64,000 nt of DNA from positions 1 through 64,000 of the forward strand of contig NZ_ANLA01000010.1 of NCBI RefSeq assembly GCF_000348685.1. Direction: 5' to 3'. Shown here in pieces: positions 38,941 through 47,204 of the stretch. Under the pieces are notes generated by a model, which worked only from the letters and a program-made list of their open reading frames with translations, had not been told where the DNA came from and did not search any database. The translations under genes were made by a program, and so were the position numbers. Within the stretch, counting starts at the first letter, position 1. Each line of letters begins with the position of its first letter. The stretch comes from Xanthomarina gelatinilytica. Lineage in GTDB: Bacteria; Bacteroidota; Bacteroidia; Flavobacteriales; Flavobacteriaceae.

Positions 38941-38970
38941 CAAAGGCATTGGATCATTCTAATGCCTTTG
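38941..38970. terminator. Weak hairpin at the end of the his operon
   Basis: CAAAGGCATT (38941-38950) pairs with AATGCCTTTG (38961-38970), overlapping the last codons of hisIE. Flanks are only moderately T-rich on the plus strand (TTTCAATTTG), so termination of either neighbour is plausible but not strong. Confidence 0.5.
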
Positions 38971-39555
38971 TTTCAATTTGTTTATCACATCTTGTAATTG
39001 AAATCCCTTGGCCTGCAATAAAATTAGATAATGAAACAGTAAATCGGCACTTTCGTTTAAAAACAAATTATCATTGATATCTTTAGCTTCTATCACGACT
39101 TCTATTGCCTCCTCTCCTACTTTTTGGGCTATTTTATTGATACCTTTATCAAATAAGGAAGCTACATAAGAATCCTCAGGCTTCCCATTTTCTTTTCTGT
39201 GTTTGATTATATCTTCAAGTTGAGAAATAAACCCGAAGGACTCTGTGTTTTTTTCTTGCCAACAGGTATCTGTTCCCTTATGACAGGTAGGTCCAGAGGG
39301 GTTCACCTTTACAAGTAAAGCATCATTGTCACAATCCAACAGCATGCTCACTAAGTTCAAATAATTCCCACTTTCTTCCCCTTTGGTCCATAAACGCTGT
39401 TTGCTCCTGCTATAAAAGGTCACTTTTCCCAACTTATTGGTTTTGTTTATAGCCTCTTGATTCATAAATCCCAACATCAACACCTTGTTGGTGGAAGCAT
39501 CTTGAACAATGGCTGGCACCAAGCCATCTTTATATTTATCAAAATCAATTTTCAT
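38959..39555 (-). CDS. hisIE: Phosphoribosyl-AMP cyclohydrolase / phosphoribosyl-ATP pyrophosphatase
   Basis: 198 residues from ATG 39555; the longer frame to 39618 overlaps hisF and is not used. The HisI domain (1-115) holds the Zn/Mg site, with the metal-binding stretch DCDNDALLVKV and later the Cys motif PTCHKGTDTCW. The HisE domain (about 115-198) has the HAD-like EVG EEAIEV (GEEAIEVVIEAK) signature. It catalyses the second and third steps of histidine synthesis. Last gene of the his operon. Confidence 0.95.
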   Translation of the reverse strand: MKIDFDKYKDGLVPAIVQDASTNKVLMLGFMNQEAINKTNKLGKVTFYSRSKQRLWTKGEESGNYLNLVSMLLDCDNDALLVKVNPSGPTCHKGTDTCWQEKNTESFGFISQLEDIIKHRKENGKPEDSYVASLFDKGINKIAQKVGEEAIEVVIEAKDINDNLFLNESADLLFHYLILLQAKGFQLQDVINKLKQRH

Positions 39556-39617
39556 GTCTATATTCTGTAAAGCTGAAATATGTTGTCTCCCAATAAGACT
39601 GAATATCTTAAAGGGCA

Positions 39618-40373
39618 CTAAAGTCTTACTTCAATATTGTTTTTTTTCAATTCTTTTTTTAAATCTAAAATATCTATTTCACCAAAATGAAATACACTGG
39701 CAGCCAAAGCTGCATCTGCTTTTCCTTTTTGAAAGGCATCAATAAAATGTTGAGGGTTTCCTGCTCCACCAGATGCTATGATGGGAATATTCAATTCTTC
39801 GGAAAGTTTTTTTAAAGCGTTATTGGCAAAGCCTTTTTTGGTTCCATCGTTGTTCATGGAGGTGAACAAGATTTCACCTGCACCTCTATTTTCTGCTTCT
39901 TTTGCCCAATGGAACAAATTCCATTTGGTAGGAATACGTCCTCCAGCAAGATGAACCATCCATTGTCCATCAATTAGTTTTGCATCTATTGCAACTACAA
40001 TACATTGACTGCCAAATTTAGCAGCTAATTCGTTGATTAAATCTGGACGCTTTATTACCGAGGAGTTCAATGATACTTTATCGGCTCCACATTTTAATAG
40101 CTTAGCCACATCATCAATGGAAGTAATGCCTCCACCAACAGTAAAAGGAATATTAATTTGTTCGGCTACTTGTAATACCAGTTCAAAAATGGTTTTTCTG
40201 CCTTCCACTGTTGCAGAAATATCAAGAAAAACAAGTTCATCGGCACCATTTTCTGCATACAATTTCGCTAAGGCCACTGGGTCTCCAGCATCTTTTAAAT
40301 CAATAAAATTGACACCTTTAACTGTTCGTCCATTTTTAATATCCAAACACGGAATAATTCTTTTTGTAAGCAT
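39618..40373 (-). CDS. hisF: Imidazole glycerol phosphate synthase, cyclase subunit
   Basis: 251 residues, a TIM barrel. It starts [20 protein letters not shown] and the catalytic Asp residues D11 (in CLDIKNG) and D130 (in IVVAIDAK) are present. FTVGGGITS and ASGGAGNP supply the phosphate-binding loops. It converts PRFAR to IGP plus AICAR using ammonia from HisH. It starts 1 base before hisA ends... the two are separated by only a base, so they are probably translated together. Confidence 0.95.
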
Positions 40374-40374
40374 T

Positions 40375-41106
40375 TTAAACGTGGGTTTCTAAATCTTTAA
40401 GTCTGATTTTTCCTTCGTAGAGGGCTTTCCCGATGATAACTGCCTCACAGCCAATATCTTCCAGCAAATTAATGTCTTCTATACAGGAAACTCCTCCAGA
40501 AGCTATTAGTTTTATGGCTTGACCGTTACTATTGGAACAGGAATTAATAATGTTTTTATATAAATCTATAGAAGGCCCTTCCAACATGCCATCTTTGGAT
40601 ATATCTGTACAAATAACATATTGGATGCTTTTTTTCTGATAGTTTTTAATAAAAGGAATTACTTCCAAAGTGCTTTCTTCTTGCCAACCACTGATGGCTA
40701 TTTTTTCATTTTTACAATCTGCCCCAAGAATAATTTTTGTGCCTCCATATTTTTCCAGCCAACCCTCGAAAGTTTTGGAATCGTTAACTGCGATACTTCC
40801 TCCTGTAATCTGTTTTGCTCCAGAATTAAAGGCTATATGTAAATCTTCATTGGCTCTAATACCTCCTCCAAAATCTATTTTTAAGTTGGTTTTGGATGCA
40901 ATTTGCTCCAAAACCTTATAATTGACGATATGTTGAGCTTTAGCTCCATCCAAATCCACTAAGTGCAAGTATTCTATGCCTGCAGCTTCAAACTGTTTGG
41001 CCACTTCCAAAGGGTTTTCGTTATATATTTTTTTGGTGTCGTAATCCCCTTTTGTGAGTCTTACGCACTTTCCATCTATAATATCAATTGCTGGTATGAT
41101 TCTCAT
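40375..41106 (-). CDS. hisA: ProFAR isomerase
   Basis: 243 residues from ATG 41106 (the TTG at 41118 adds four residues not found in the family). A TIM barrel starting [17 protein letters not shown], with catalytic Asp8 (in PAIDI) and a second Asp in the [14 protein letters not shown] loop, plus the DFGGGIR and IASGGV phosphate loops. It converts ProFAR to PRFAR. Directly after hisH (1-base gap) and before hisF. Confidence 0.95.
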
Positions 41107-41107
41107 A

Positions 41108-41704
41108 TTATAATTCAATAAAATTCTTTAATATTTTTTCTCCTGCGAGACTGCTTTTTTCTGGGTGGAATTGGACACCATAAAAATTGTTTTTTTGCAA
41201 TGCTGAAGCATAAACCAAACTGTATTGCGTTAAAGCAATGGCATCTTTGCAATTTTCAGCATAATAACTATGTACAAGATACATATATTCATTTTCAGAA
41301 ATACCATTAAAAAGCTTAGATTTTAAATTAGTTATGGTATTCCAGCCCATTTGTGGCACTTTTACTTGATTTGAAAAGCGTTTTATTGAAACATCAAAAA
41401 CGCCCAACCCTTTGGTATTGCCTTCTTCGGTGTGGTTACATAATAATTGCATGCCCAAACAAATGCCTAAAACAGGTTGCTTAAGCTGAGGCAGCAACAG
41501 ATCCAAACCTTTTTTCTTAAGCATATTCATGGCACTACTGGCTTCTCCAACACCTGGAAATATAATTTTGTCTGCTGTTAAAATTTCGGTTGGTTTATTG
41601 GAAAGCAATGCCTCTACACCTAACCGTTTTAACGCAAATTGTATGCTTTTAATGTTTCCTGCGCCATAATCAATTATTACGAGTTTTAAAGTTTTTTTGT
41701 TCAT
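41108..41704 (-). CDS. hisH: Imidazole glycerol phosphate synthase, glutaminase subunit
   Basis: 198 residues, class I glutamine amidotransferase. The nucleophile Cys is in GICLGMQLL (near 83), with the His/Glu partners in [10 protein letters not shown] near 180. It releases ammonia for HisF. Separated from hisB by 104 bases that carry no obvious gene; otherwise the operon is tight. The protein matches family length. Confidence 0.95.
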
Positions 41705-41808
41705 TTACTTTTTCTTTTGCTTGAAATTTGTTGTTACAAATTCCAAAAATTCTAAAGACATCTTCCAAAAATCAGCCTTTTGGAATTTACCATATTTTTT
41801 ATAGGATA

Positions 41809-42942
41809 TTACAAAACACCTTTTGTTGAAGGCAAAATCATTTTATTTACATCTCTTTTTACAGCCATTTTTATAGCTTTTGCAAAAGCTTTGAAAATAG
41901 CTTCTATTTTATGATGCTCGTTTGTCCCTTCTGCTTTAATGTTTAGGTTGCATTTAGCTCCATCTGTAAAAGACTTAAAAAAGTGCATAAACATTTCTGT
42001 TGGCATATGGCCTATCATTTCACGTTTAAATTGTGCTTCCCAAACCAACCAATTTCTACCTCCAAAATCTATAGCTACTTGTGCCAAACAGTCGTCCATG
42101 GGCAGACAGAAACCATATCGTTCCATCCCTAATTTATTCCCTAAAGCTTTTTCAAACAAGTTGCCCAGCGCAATAGCAGTATCTTCTATGGTATGGTGTT
42201 CATCTACTTCCAAATCTCCTGATACCTGAATGTTTAAATCCAATTGACCATGTTTTGCAATTTGGTCTAGCATGTGATCAAAAAAAGGAATCCCTGTTTG
42301 AATATTGCTTTGTCCCGTACCATCAAGGTTCAATGCCATTTTAATTTGAGTCTCCTGCGTAGTTAGCTCTAAATATCCAGTACGATCCCTTGTTTTTAAA
42401 AATGTATATATTTGTTCCCAACTATTGGTTTCCAGAGCTATATACGCATTTAAATCTTCTTGGTTTACCGAGATTTCATTAGTTCCAAGATAAGTTTCAT
42501 CGTTGATAAATATTCCTTTGCAACCTAAATTTTTAGCAAGTTCCATATCTGTCAATCGGTCTCCAATTACAAAAGAATTTGCCAAATCATATTCCGATGT
42601 AATATAGGAAGTCAACATTCCCGTATTTGGTTTTCTTGTTGACGCATTGTCTTTCGCAAAAGTTCTATCGATACATTGTTCTTTAAAGATGATGCCTTCA
42701 GCCTGAAAGGTTTTAATGATGAAATCATGGACTGGCCAAAAGGTGTTTTCTGGAAATGCCTCTGTACCCAGACCATCTTGATTGGTAACCATCACCAATT
42801 CAAAATCCAATTCCTTGGCAATTTTACTTAAATACTGAAATATATTTGGGTAAAAATCCAATTTGTCAAAAGCATCTATCTGCTCATCTTTGGTTTCTTT
42901 TATAAGGGTTCCATCCCTATCTATAAAAAGTACTTTTTTCAT
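41809..42942 (-). CDS. hisB: Bifunctional histidinol-phosphatase / imidazoleglycerol-phosphate dehydratase
   Basis: 377 residues with two domains. The N-terminal HAD phosphatase (1-165) has the nucleophile and acid D8/D10 in FIDRDGT and Cys/His Zn ligands of the loop, though the usual four-Cys zinc loop is not complete here. The C-terminal IGPD domain (about 185-377) has the metal-binding [12 protein letters not shown] and later [12 protein letters not shown]. It catalyses steps seven and nine of the pathway. Its ATG overlaps hisC by 4 bases. Confidence 0.95.
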
Positions 42943-43970
42943 TGTAAGTCTTTTAAGGTGTTAATTAAATTTTGGTTTTCTTTTGGTGTGCCAACGGTCA
43001 ATCGTAAACAATTTTCACATCCAAATTGAGTGCTTCTATTTCTTACAACTATGCCCTTCTCAACCAATTGTTTGTATCGCATTTGGGCATCATCCATTTT
43101 TACTAATAAAAAATTAGCCTGAGAAGGATAGACCTTTGAAATGAATTGTATGGTCTTTAATGTTGAAGTTAAAAGTGCTCTCTCAGATTTAATCAGCTCT
43201 ATTTCAGAAGCAATTTCAGTTAGGTTTTTCAGTCTTTTTAAAGCTGCTGATTGCGTCAAGGTATTTATGTTGTAAGGTGGTTTGATGTTATTTAATATGG
43301 ACACAATATCTTTTGAAGCATAGCAAATTCCCAATCTAATTCCTGCCAAACCAAAGGCTTTGGAAAATGTTTGAGTGATTACCAGGTTGGGAAATTCCTC
43401 CAGTCTTTGCAACCAGCTTTTTTGTTCAGAAAAATCTATATAAGCTTCATCCAAAACCACGATTCCCTGAAATGCCCTTAGCAACCTTTCCATGTCCAAT
43501 GGATTAAAACTGTTACCTGTTGGGTTGTTTGGAGAACACAAAAACAAGACCTTTGCATTGCTTATCTTGAGAATCTTGGATACTTGAAGGTTAAAAGAGG
43601 CTGTTAAAGGCACTTCAACAACTTCCAACGCATTTATGTTTGCCAACACTTGATACATGCCATAAGTTGGAGGTAAAGTAATGACTTTGTCTTTGTTGGG
43701 TTCACAAAAAGCTCTCAAAATCAAATCCAATGCTTCATCGCTACCATTTCCCAAAAGAATGTTTTCTGGAGCCACTTGCTTAATTTTTGAAAGTTCTGCT
43801 TTTAGAAGTTCTTGTTTTGGATCTGGATAACGGTTCATACCATTGTTAAAAGGGTTTTCATTGGCATCCAAAAATACCATCTCACCATTAATTTGCTGAT
43901 ACTCATCCCTTGCAGAAGTATAGGGTTTTAAGGCTTTTATATTGTCTCTAACTAAATTTAAAATATTCAT
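42939..43970 (-). CDS. hisC: Histidinol-phosphate aminotransferase
   Basis: 343 residues, class II PLP aminotransferase. The PLP lysine lies in [14 protein letters not shown] (near 208), and the phosphate-binding [16 protein letters not shown] and SPNNPTG motifs are present. It converts imidazole acetol-phosphate to histidinol phosphate. It overlaps hisD and hisB by 4 bases each. Confidence 0.95.
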
Positions 43971-45250
43971 GATATGTCCTTTAATCTTATGGAAACAGCA
44001 TTTTTATGAGCTTGCAAGCCTTCGGCCTCAGCCATTAATTCAATGGCTGGCCCAATATTTTTCAAGCCTTGTTTTGAGATGTTCTGAAACGTGATACTTT
44101 TTGTAAAGCTATCTAAATTCACTCCTGAATACACATTACTGAATCCGTTTGTTGGTAAGGTATGGTTGGTACCAGAGGCATAATCTCCTGCACTTTCGGG
44201 TGTGTAATTACCAATAAAAACCGAGCCTGCATTAAGAATATTGTCAACAAAGTAATCATTGTTTTTTGTAGCAATAATCAAATGCTCTGGCGCATAGGCA
44301 TTAATTAAATCCAATGCATCGGTCTCTTGCTGCATATATATAAATTTGGAATTGGATATGGCTTTTTCCGCAATCGCTTTTCTTGGCAAGTCCAAAAGTT
44401 GCTTGGATATTTCGTTTTGTACTCTTTTAATGAATGCTTCGGAAGAGGAAACCAAAACAACCTGACTATCCACTCCATGTTCTGCCTGACTTAACAAATC
44501 GGATGCCACATAAGCTGCCTGAGCCGATTGATCTGCCACCACAAGCAGTTCACTTGGTCCAGCAGGCATATCTATTGCAACACCATATTTTGTGGCCAAC
44601 TGTTTGGCAACGGTTACAAACTGGTTGCCTGGTCCAAATATCTTAAATATTCGAGGCATGGTTTTGGTTCCAAAGGTCATGCCTGCAATAGCCTGAATGC
44701 CACCTACTTTATAGATTTTATCAATGCCACAAAGTTTTGCTGTATATAAAATTTCATTGGCAACCTTACCTTCTTTATTTGGAGGTGTGCACAGCACAAT
44801 GTCCTTACATCCTGCTATTGTTGCAGGAATAGCCAACATTAAAACCGTGGAAAACAATGGAGCGGTACCTCCAGGAATGTACAAGCCTATCTTTTCTATT
44901 GGTCTTTTTTCCTGCCAACAAACCACACCTGGAGTGGTTTCAACTTCCAATTTATCGGTTTTTTGCGCTTGGTGAAATTTCTCAATATTGGATTTTGCAA
45001 GTTTGATGGCTCTTTTCAGTTCCTCTAAAACCAAATTGGAAGCCAATTCCATTTCTTCTTCAGTTACCATGTTGCATTGCTGTGAAGCACCATCAAAAAG
45101 TTCGGTGTATTTTTTTATGGCTGCATCTCCATGACGCTTAACATCATCAAAAATCTGATTGACGGTAAGCTCTATGTTTTCCATGTTTTGTGTGGGTCTT
45201 TTTAAAATTGAAGCCCAAATTTTTCTATTTGGATTTATTATTGTTTTCAT
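43967..45250 (-). CDS. hisD: Histidinol dehydrogenase
   Basis: 427 residues. The zinc/NAD-binding motifs include IDMPAGPSELLVVAD, the conserved QAEHGVDSQVVLV with catalytic histidine, and YAPEHLII near 330. ASGTNHTLPT near the C terminus is also typical. It oxidises histidinol to histidine in two steps in the cytoplasm. Starts 1 base after hisG stops. Confidence 0.95.
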   Translation of the reverse strand: MKTIINPNRKIWASILKRPTQNMENIELTVNQIFDDVKRHGDAAIKKYTELFDGASQQCNMVTEEEMELASNLVLEELKRAIKLAKSNIEKFHQAQKTDKLEVETTPGVVCWQEKRPIEKIGLYIPGGTAPLFSTVLMLAIPATIAGCKDIVLCTPPNKEGKVANEILYTAKLCGIDKIYKVGGIQAIAGMTFGTKTMPRIFKIFGPGNQFVTVAKQLATKYGVAIDMPAGPSELLVVADQSAQAAYVASDLLSQAEHGVDSQVVLVSSSEAFIKRVQNEISKQLLDLPRKAIAEKAISNSKFIYMQQETDALDLINAYAPEHLIIATKNNDYFVDNILNAGSVFIGNYTPESAGDYASGTNHTLPTNGFSNVYSGVNLDSFTKSITFQNISKQGLKNIGPAIELMAEAEGLQAHKNAVSIRLKDIS

Positions 45251-45251
45251 A

Positions 45252-46109
45252 TTAAATTACCATATTTTCTATAGGACAAACCAAAATACCTTCAGCTCCT
45301 TGAGCCTTTAGTTTGTCTATAATTTGCCAAAAATCATTTTTATTAATTACTGAATGTAAGGAGCTCCATCCTGCTTCTGCCAAAGGCAAAATGGTTGGGC
45401 TTTTCATTCCTGGAAGGATTTCAATGATGTCTGGAATCTTATTGTTAGGTGCATTTAAAAGCACATATTTGTTTTGTCTTCCTTTTAAAACAGATTGAAA
45501 CCGAAATTTTAACTTGTTTAAAATATTTTTACTTTCATTGGAAATCAATGGAGATTCTGCCAAAACAGCTTCAGACTGTAAAAGCACATCAACTTCCTTT
45601 AAATTGTTTTTAAATAAGGTGCTACCACTGGAAACAATGTCCACAATGGCATCTGCAAGACCAATATTTGGCGTAATTTCAACAGAACCATTAATGATAT
45701 GCAGATTGGCTTTAATTTGATTTTTGTTTAAAAAAGCTTGAACCGTATTGGGATATGAAGTTGCAATACGCTTGCCTTGCAAATCCTTTAAGGATTTGAA
45801 CTGGATGTTTTTGGGAACGGCCAAAGACAGCCTACATGAGGAAAATCCTAATTTTTCAATAATTGGAATGTCTTGTCCCTTTTCAATCAACACATTTTCA
45901 CCTATAATGGCTGCATCTACAATGCCATCCCTTAAATACTGAGGGATATCGCCATTGCGCAAATAAAACACTTCTAAGGGAAAATTTTTAGCTGAGGCTT
46001 TTAATTGGTCTCTGCCATTGTCTATGGAAATCCCAACATCTTTCAGGATTTTCATGGAGTCGTCGTGTAAACGACCCGATTTTTGAACTGCAATTTTTAA
46101 TTTACTCAT
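45252..46109 (-). CDS. hisG: ATP phosphoribosyltransferase, long form
   Basis: 285 residues from ATG 46109; a TTG four codons upstream is less likely. It is the long form with a C-terminal ACT-like regulatory domain (about 215-285), so feedback inhibition by histidine is expected without HisZ. The PRPP loop DIVSSGSTLFKNN is readable near 165. It catalyses the committed step. First structural gene after the leader peptide and attenuator at 46203-46321. Confidence 0.95.
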   Translation of the reverse strand: MSKLKIAVQKSGRLHDDSMKILKDVGISIDNGRDQLKASAKNFPLEVFYLRNGDIPQYLRDGIVDAAIIGENVLIEKGQDIPIIEKLGFSSCRLSLAVPKNIQFKSLKDLQGKRIATSYPNTVQAFLNKNQIKANLHIINGSVEITPNIGLADAIVDIVSSGSTLFKNNLKEVDVLLQSEAVLAESPLISNESKNILNKLKFRFQSVLKGRQNKYVLLNAPNNKIPDIIEILPGMKSPTILPLAEAGWSSLHSVINKNDFWQIIDKLKAQGAEGILVCPIENMVI

Positions 46110-46202
46110 AATTATTCCCAACTAAATGGGCATTTGTTTAATTAGTAATCTAATTGTTTGAGTAAACCTTTTTGGGAAGACATTTTCAATGTCATGAAAA
46201 AC

Positions 46203-46233
46203 AAAACCCGTTTGATTTACTCAAACGGGTTTT
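46203..46233 (-). terminator. his operon attenuator: terminator hairpin
   Basis: On the minus strand AAAACCCGTTTGA (46233-46221), loop GTAAA, TCAAACGGGTTTT (46215-46203), then GTTTTT. It lies 32 bases after the leader-peptide stop and 93 bases before hisG. Its 5' part CGTTTGAGT (46227-46219) can pair instead with the upstream ACTCAAGCG (46279-46271; 9 bp with one G-U), forming an antiterminator. Confidence 0.85.
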
Positions 46234-46264
46234 TTTAAATATCTTGATTTTATTCAATACATTT

Positions 46265-46321
46265 TCAGCTCGCTTGAGTGCCAGAATGAAAATGATGATG
46301 ATGTAATTGAATAAATGTCAT
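46265..46321 (-). CDS. hisL: his operon leader peptide
   Basis: An 18-residue reading frame, ATG at 46321 to TGA at 46265, encoding MTFIQLHHHHFHSGTQAS: five His codons within six positions. The codons for Thr-Gln-Ala (46279-46271) form the antiterminator arm. Ribosomes stalling at the His codons for lack of charged tRNA-His would leave that arm free and prevent the terminator; ribosomes reaching the stop would cover it. This is the classical hisL attenuation logic, not previously annotated here and too short for ordinary gene calling. Confidence 0.85.
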   Translation of the reverse strand: MTFIQLHHHHFHSGTQAS

Positions 46322-46340
46322 GTTTCTTTTTTTGTGAATA

Positions 46341-46365
46341 CAAAGATTGTAAATAAAAATTTACA
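46341..46365 (-). promoter_or_regulatory. Promoter region of the his operon
   Basis: Minus-strand AATCTTTG (46348-46341) is one mismatch from TAnnTTTG and 20 bases before the leader ATG. A perfect inverted repeat TGTAAAT-AAAA-ATTTACA (46348-46365) overlaps the spacer and could be an operator or the end of the upstream SPFH transcript. No well-spaced TTG. Confidence 0.45.
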
Positions 46366-46388
46366 AATCCTAAACAAATTGAAAATTT

Positions 46389-47204
46389 TTATTGATTTCC
46401 AAGTATAATAGGCATTCCAGAGTCTCCTGAACCAATTACAATAACTTTACTGTTAGTAGATTCTGATAGTTTAATGGTGGCTTCAATACCTTTATCCTGT
46501 AAAATTTTATCGGTTAAAGAGGCGCTTAAAATTCTATTGGCATCTGCTTTACCTTGGGCTTCAATAATTTGTTTTTCTGCTTCTTTGGCTGCCGTAACCA
46601 ATCTAAATTCGTATTCCAACGACTCTTGTTCCTGTTTTAATTTACGCTCAATGGCATCTTTTATAGTTGGAGGCAAAGTAACATCGCGAACCAAAACTTC
46701 GTTTAATTGAATGTATTGATCTTCCACAATTTTTTTGGTTTCCTCAAAAATTTCTTGTTGTATGGCATCACGTTTGCTGGAATATAATTGTTCTGGTGTA
46801 TAACGACCTACAACACTTCTGGCTGCTGAACGTATGGCTGGCAATAAAACACGTTCTTTATACATTTCACTTTTTTCTTGGTGCAGTTTCCCCAAATTTG
46901 CATAATCTGGCTGAAACCATACAGAAGCTTCCAGTTTAATATCCAGACCATTGGAGGACAGCACATTCATTTTTTCCAAAATCTCTTGCTGGCGCACTTC
47001 ATAAACAAAAACCTTGTTCCAAGGCGCTACAATATGAAAGCCTTCACCTAAGGGAGCTTCGTCTGTAACAACTCCTCCCCCAAATGTTTTATAGAGCACA
47101 CCTGCTTCTCCAGACCCGATGGTTATGGCAGATTTAGCAAGTACAATAATTAAAACAATAGCAATAATAATAGTTGGCAAAGCCACTTTAGGTAATTTTT
47201 CCAT
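46389..47204 (-). CDS. SPFH/prohibitin-family membrane protein
   Basis: 271 residues: one N-terminal membrane segment (about 8-27), an SPFH (band 7) domain (about 30-200), and a coiled-coil tail rich in Ala/Glu/Lys (about 180-240, EYEFRLVTAAKEAEKQIIEAQGKADANR). Prohibitin-type members assemble into rings or cages in the inner membrane and modulate proteases such as FtsH. The last gene of the fabG-VWA-SPFH run, with 14 bases to the VWA gene. Confidence 0.92.
   Translation of the reverse strand: MEKLPKVALPTIIIAIVLIIVLAKSAITIGSGEAGVLYKTFGGGVVTDEAPLGEGFHIVAPWNKVFVYEVRQQEILEKMNVLSSNGLDIKLEASVWFQPDYANLGKLHQEKSEMYKERVLLPAIRSAARSVVGRYTPEQLYSSKRDAIQQEIFEETKKIVEDQYIQLNEVLVRDVTLPPTIKDAIERKLKQEQESLEYEFRLVTAAKEAEKQIIEAQGKADANRILSASLTDKILQDKGIEATIKLSESTNSKVIVIGSGDSGMPIILGNQ

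Follow-up and report, generated by a model that had tools for sequence, protein, structure and literature searches.

A predicted histidine attenuator ahead of hisG in Flavobacteriaceae, and a conserved element beyond its terminator that may gate the hisG start codon

What decides whether the histidine operon of a flavobacterium is transcribed, and whether a transcript that slips past the control point is also translated? The question is raised by the region upstream of hisG in the 64,000-nucleotide stretch of Xanthomarina gelatinilytica DNA analysed here (the whole of it is called the window throughout), where a complete operon, hisG-D-C-B-H-A-F-IE, lies behind a His-rich leader on the minus strand. 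Histidine attenuation has been worked out in enterobacteria and only hinted at in this phylum so far; a 2004 survey of attenuators is said to have included Bacteroidetes/Chlorobi. The best explanation of the whole, to which we assign a probability of roughly 0.55, is a his attenuator with a second, translational output that would run through a single decision strand, element 3. The operon, whose hisG ATG lies at 46109, is made up as follows.

45252 to 46109, minus strand: hisG, ATP phosphoribosyltransferase, 285 aa, with a HisG C-terminal domain (NCBIfam TIGR00070 and TIGR03455)
38959 to 45250, minus strand: hisD, hisC, hisB, hisH, hisA, hisF and hisIE (NCBIfam)

The gene directly upstream of the leader, on the same strand (46389-47204), encodes a 271-aa protein that resembles the SPFH/prohibitin family by eye and had no NCBIfam match at E 1e-20. 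Between this gene and hisG, the following features make up the attenuator.

46341 to 46367, minus strand: probable promoter with Bacteroidetes-type boxes, TTTG (46367-46364) and AATCTTTG (46348-46341)
46321 (ATG) to 46265 (TGA), minus strand: leader peptide MTFIQLHHHHFHSGTQAS, 18 codons, five of them His codons
46306 to 46315, minus strand: stem 1, 5' arm TTTATTCAAT, in the leader codons ahead of the His run; partner 46258-46249
46249 to 46258, minus strand: stem 1, 3' arm ATTGAATAAA, directly past the leader stop
46271 to 46279, minus strand: element 2, the antiterminator 5' arm ACTCAAGCG, inside the leader codons T-Q-A
46279-46271 with 46227-46219, minus strand: antiterminator, ACTCAAGCG with CGTTTGAGT, 9 bp including one G-U (G46273-T46225)
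46214 to 46227, minus strand: element 3, CGTTTGAGTAAATC, the terminator 5' arm and loop; common partner of elements 2, 4 and 5
46203 to 46233, minus strand: intrinsic terminator hairpin (46233-46221 with 46215-46203), with 13 bp and a GTAAA loop; element 4 is its 3' arm
46197 to 46206, minus strand: U-tract TTTTGTTTTT, whose first four bases double as the closure of the terminator stem

A sequence-only reading of this region had described an 18-residue leader that contains five His codons, together with an antiterminator of 9 bp and a terminator of 13 bp, ahead of hisG. The leader agrees with that description to the base, and both hairpins lie where it had placed them, the terminator being U-tailed. 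The five His codons are all CAT (46303-46292 and 46288-46286, minus strand), and an inner helix (46294-46287/46267-46260) extends stem 1. The leader fold of the window has a z-score of -5.9, a value equalled by 0 of 200 shuffles. An Rfam scan of the 64-kb window at gathering score gave no matches, His_leader (RF00514) and the T-box models included, and a T-box or other known riboswitch is rejected on this ground. A promoter function of the two boxes is probable from their sequence; an AnnTTTG motif lies 8-40 nt 5' of the leader ATG in 114 of 130 genomes, at a median of 18 nt. Past the terminator, the start of the leader (46322-46314) recurs as CATGACATT (46196-46188), and the region around this repeat (46196-46179) forms a small GACATT...AATGTC hairpin, which is not kept in relatives of the same genus.

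We were interested in how far this arrangement extends among relatives, and compared 133 oriented hisG upstream regions from the genus and the family. The search of other flavobacteria for His-codon leaders and covarying stems, which the sequence-only reading had proposed, found both. An ATG-started His-rich leader (a short ORF with at least 3 His) precedes hisG in 130 of the 133 regions, and the remaining three carry the same leader sequence without the ATG. These leaders mostly have 17-18 residues with 3-6 His, encoded across the family by 520 CAT and 32 CAC codons, and they nearly always end in codons for Q-A-x, where CAAGCG is the antiterminator arm. A strong terminator occupies the same place in every region of the family but one, L123, where it is degenerate; in L090 the automatic scan took another hairpin, and the expected terminator is nonetheless present. 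Covariation was assessed on a MAFFT alignment made without fitting to a structure, with the partner slid by 1-3 columns as control. Among 130 genomes, 98.8% of cells are paired in the terminator (slid controls at most 58%); for the antiterminator, element 2 with element 3 (2:3), the value is 94.5% (at most 50%), and for stem 1 it is 78.3% (at most 52%), with both sides changed in 82 cells. RNAalifold on 80 leaders recovered the terminator alone; variation in stem 1 and the competition of 2:3 with the terminator are the probable cause. Among named Flavobacteriaceae loci, the leader was found in 79 of 80 (Winogradskyella, Lacinutrix, Polaribacter, Tenacibaculum, Zobellia and others), and a covariance model built from 80 leaders also matched strongly ahead of hisG in further families of the class.

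Other leaders of comparable build were encountered as well. In other families of the class there is a second, apparently distinct type of his attenuator (e.g. L266, L276, L281, L284 and L294), which has a His-rich leader before hisG and a different terminator (GGCTTGCC...GGTAAGCC), without element 5. Besides, the genus has a Phe-rich leader (e.g. MKATLNFAYYNWNYFFFNRRNETLYM) with a terminator 5' of pheA (L314-L320, the window's genome being L315), and a Trp leader (MKTILNHTWWWNFRNSNFVK in the window's genome, L325) with a terminator 5' of trpE across the genus (L321-L327).

For the attenuation logic, we folded the nascent leader as far as element 3, with nucleotides masked by a virtual ribosome. 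When the A-site was placed at His 1-3, 2:3 formation over 130 genomes was 0.97; it fell to 0.79 for later His codons and to 0.00 for the stop codon. The window gave 1.00, 0.75 and 0.00 for the same three positions, and again 0.00 without a ribosome, because stem 1 (12 pairs) keeps element 2 in its loop. Absence of leader translation would thus also favour termination in the window's genome, while across the family 2:3 formation without a ribosome is mixed (mean 0.41). Anatomy, conservation and covariation establish the leader, the terminator, the antiterminator and stem 1, and with the folding results they mark the region as almost certainly a ribosome-mediated, histidine-dependent transcription attenuator of the his operon. 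The earlier statement that this is complete His-dependent attenuation therefore stands as regards attenuation and fails as regards completeness: the protector stem 1 and element 5 had been missed. We gave very little credence to the reading that the hairpins sense a protein or metabolite and that the His-rich ORF is incidental, with no sensing of translation. That Rfam finds no known family would suit it; against it stand the His run, encoded by both CAT and CAC and retained in at least 130 of 133 genomes, the antiterminator arm within leader codons, the dependence of 2:3 on ribosome position alone in folding, and the comparable Phe and Trp leaders that the genus has 5' of pheA and trpE. The attenuator part is ordinary in kind, and such attenuators are known in principle.

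A further element lies between the terminator and hisG.

46156 to 46168, minus strand: element 5, GGTTTACTCAAAC, 3' of the terminator and 5' of hisG; its first ten bases also complement the hisG start

Element 5 is complementary over 13 positions to GTTTGAGTAAATC, that is, to element 3 with its terminator 5' arm and loop. When the complement of each genome's own element 3 was sought beyond the terminator, with a cut-off of at most 1 in 100 dinucleotide shuffles as good, element 5 was detected in 90 of the 133 family genomes; in about a third of them the same search did not detect it. In the unfitted MAFFT alignment, 90.9% of aligned cells of the 3:5 pairing are paired (slid controls at most 56.5%), with both sides changed in 112 cells, and one loop position is seen as A-T, T-A and C-G. 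Parsimony on a HisG protein tree of 86 loci, other families included, counted 32 double compensatory changes in 3:5 against 1-5 for pairings shifted by 1-2, and 71 one-sided, pair-keeping changes against 16-23, these compensatory counts being somewhat inflated since the segment taken as element 5 was picked by best complementarity. By eye, element 5 is seen in about ten families besides Flavobacteriaceae, and many of the covariance-model matches retain it through compensatory changes; outside the family, for instance, the arm GTTTGAG becomes GTCTGAG, and element 5 changes from CTCAAAC to CTCAGAC or CTCAGGC. On this comparative evidence the 3:5 pairing is very probably real. Chance as the origin of element 5 is rejected by the shuffles, the slid controls and the tree counts. 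Likewise, element 5 is not a second terminator, as no U-run follows it by eye, and it is not a general feature of attenuators in the genus, since the pheA and trpE leaders have no such complement by eye. Genomes without element 5 (L034, L043, L053, L075, L094) often have an inverted repeat of the TTCCCG...CGGGAA type past the terminator, which looks as if it were an insertion that replaced element 5. No report of a downstream partner of the terminator arm in a his attenuator was found in the open-access literature searched.

The position of element 5 drew our attention to the start codon of hisG. The distance from the end of element 5 to the hisG ATG has an interquartile range of 15-18 nt and is about 16 nt in most relatives, and the distance from terminator to element 5 is more variable (16-24). 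In the window, element 5 lies 46 nt from the hisG ATG with a small hairpin in between (46130-46117), as in some relatives; this hairpin is G+C-rich (also in L002, L003, L012, L016 and L023) and stretches the otherwise near-fixed spacing.

46117 to 46130, minus strand: small hairpin CCCATTTAGTTGGG, in the stretch from element 5 to the hisG ATG; only some relatives have it
46099 to 46108, minus strand: element 6, TGAGTAAATT, the start region of hisG counted from the U of AUG; pairs with element 5 through 8 Watson-Crick and 2 G-U pairs

Complementarity of element 5 to element 6 (5:6) beats shuffles at p<=0.05 in 35 of the 40 genomes of the window's lineage. Complementarity to the hisG start reaches the same level in 8% of the 38 genomes that lack element 5 and, among other groups with element 5, in 1 of 35 genomes of the ACAA lineage and 4 of 15 'other' genomes. 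In four loci, element 3, element 5 and the hisG start have changed together: hisG begins with ATGAACAAATTA in L054, where element 5 and element 3 have become GATTTAGTTC and GAACTAATC; with ATGAGTACTTTA or ATGAGTACATTA in L138 and L142, where they read TGTACTCA and GAGTACATC; and with ATGAGTATTTTA in L151, where they read GATATACTCAT and GAGTATATC. In L152, hisG lacks codons 2-3, and CTGAGC just 5' of the ATG matches GCTCAG of element 5. The wobble base of hisG codon 4 is associated with the facing base of element 5, at 36/4 versus 9/9 (Fisher p = 0.0016, kinship not corrected for). In the ACAA lineage, element 5 tracks element 3 while hisG stays ATGAGTAAA, and for this reason a match to the hisG start as the sole explanation of element 5 is rejected. 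In the 23 ACAA genomes with element 5, an ACTCAT after it can pair with ATGAGT, a shorter helix in place of 5:6 and one that is not significant genome by genome. Moreover, the hisG start is constrained by coding, so that part of the 5:6 complementarity could be shared ancestry. The pairing of element 5 with the hisG start is partly shown by sequence comparison, in the window's lineage and several others.

We then considered what the alternative pairings would mean for access to the start codon, with state energies computed at 25 C by folding with soft constraints. In the window, with the terminator formed, element 5 is predicted to pair with the hisG start over about 10 pairs, leaving the AUG 0.36 unpaired; excluding the terminator lets 3:5 form, and the unpaired fraction of the AUG is then 0.74. 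When the terminator state (3:4) and the 3:5 state were compared directly in the window's lineage (39 genomes), the mean unpaired AUG fraction rose from 0.36 to 0.53, the AUG being more open in 27 genomes and less open in 7. With the terminator alone excluded and a ribosome stalled on His, 3:5 (0.60) prevails over 2:3 (0.36) in this lineage, and the mean for the AUG is only 0.41. In the ACAA lineage, 3:5 scarcely opens the AUG (0.13 to 0.20). At equilibrium the terminator hairpin is favoured over 3:5, by a median of +6.4 kcal/mol for genomes of the window's lineage and of +3.3 for those of the ACAA lineage, so that the proposed switch must be kinetic. It is plausible that element 5, starting at the free 3' end of element 3, would invade 2:3 with no need of a pseudoknot.

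Taken as a whole, the regulatory steps that we infer, the hand-over of element 3 from element 2 to element 5 and the fail-safe role among them, would run as follows. When histidine runs short, a ribosome that stalls at the His codons would open stem 1 and free element 2; 2:3 would form in place of the terminator and RNA polymerase would continue, whereupon the emerging element 5 would capture element 3 and leave the hisG start codon unpaired, so that hisG could be translated. With histidine plentiful, a ribosome at the leader stop would cover element 2, 3:4 would form, and most transcripts would terminate. In transcripts that leak through, element 3 would be tied up in the terminator hairpin, which would leave element 5 to pair with the hisG start codon and so keep such mRNA silent. 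If the leader is not translated at all, stem 1 would hold element 2, making termination the default in the window's genome. The lock of element 5 on the hisG start with its fail-safe logic, as suggested by sequence comparison and folding, is put forward tentatively, at chances somewhat short of even.

The same evidence might be accommodated by a plain transcription attenuator, in which 3:5 only stabilises or insulates the 5' end of the read-through mRNA, with no histidine control of translation; for example, 3:5 could prevent the terminator hairpin from forming again, or shield the A-rich hisG initiation region from the U-tract. This reading we regard as unlikely, though far from negligible. 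It would explain why conservation is stronger and covariation wider for 3:5 than for 5:6, and why some lineages retain 3:5 with a weak lock or none. The near-fixed distance from element 5 to the hisG ATG, however, points to the start codon, as do the joint changes of element 3, element 5 and the hisG start and, in the window's lineage, the significant complementarity to that start. Another possibility is that the pairing acts in trans, the terminated leader RNA with its exposed element-3 loop binding element 5 of the full-length his mRNA and repressing it. Trans repression of this kind has reportedly been proposed for the attenuator RNA rnTrpL of Sinorhizobium, and element 5 does complement the loop and arm that a terminated RNA presents; yet 13 bp would need to displace a hairpin of 12-14 bp, and the same strands lie only a few tens of bases apart in cis, where cis pairing already explains the complementarity. 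We consider action in trans very improbable.

With the enterobacterial hisL (Rfam RF00514, His_leader), the flavobacterial switch shares a leader with a run of His codons, an alternative antiterminator and terminator, and a full his operon downstream; it differs in having no Rfam match and in the extra element 5 past the terminator. The antiterminator 5' arm, moreover, lies here in the loop of a long protector stem, whereas in hisL it pairs directly in a 1:2 hairpin. Closer to the window, the sequence-only reading had known of no worked example in Flavobacteriaceae and had allowed that reports may exist; the 2021 transcriptome of F. psychrophilum indeed points that way, with a structured hisG 5' element, conserved across Flavobacteriaceae genera and without an Rfam hit, and with 'strong clues' of leader-peptide attenuation for amino acid operons (PMC9723704). 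That element is very likely the same as the one in the window, although the main text of that report gives no His-specific anatomy, and we found in it no mention of an element past the terminator. In Firmicutes, candidate his attenuators share the His-rich leader, the terminator, the antiterminator and the comparative-genomics basis; they belong to another phylum, and the accessible text on them describes no downstream anti-start element (PMC9413887). A likeness to the proposed double output is known from B. subtilis tlrB (yxjB), in which stalling on a leader peptide governs both a terminator and a start-hiding hairpin and leaked transcripts are silent (PMC6851288). There, the signal is tylosin, the Shine-Dalgarno sequence is sequestered and no antiterminator was identified (PMC6851288), whereas here the signal would be His-tRNA, an antiterminator is present and the site hidden would be the AUG, in hosts without Shine-Dalgarno sites. 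The B. subtilis trp leader, with its trpE hairpin, likewise combines transcription attenuation with translational repression of the first gene, but its sensor is the protein TRAP and not ribosome position (PMC12288461). In F. johnsoniae, where Shine-Dalgarno sites are lacking, initiation is partly tuned by structure near the start codon (PMC6847099).

Element 5 distinguishes this switch from the his attenuators met with in the literature searched; its pairing is well supported, and a role as translational gate is the explanation that we favour for it, with slightly less than even confidence. More tentatively still, we surmise a ribosome-sensed switch conserved across the class, in which element 3 picks among three partners and one histidine decision sets both termination and access to the hisG start, leaks being silenced without a protein or a Shine-Dalgarno sequence. 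The class-wide anatomy would permit a curated RNA family to be built, and the his switch would offer a direct test of transcription-translation coupling where ribosomes work without Shine-Dalgarno sequences. Should the second gate prove real, these bacteria would have a start codon controlled by structure alone, and an attenuator that suppresses its own leak.
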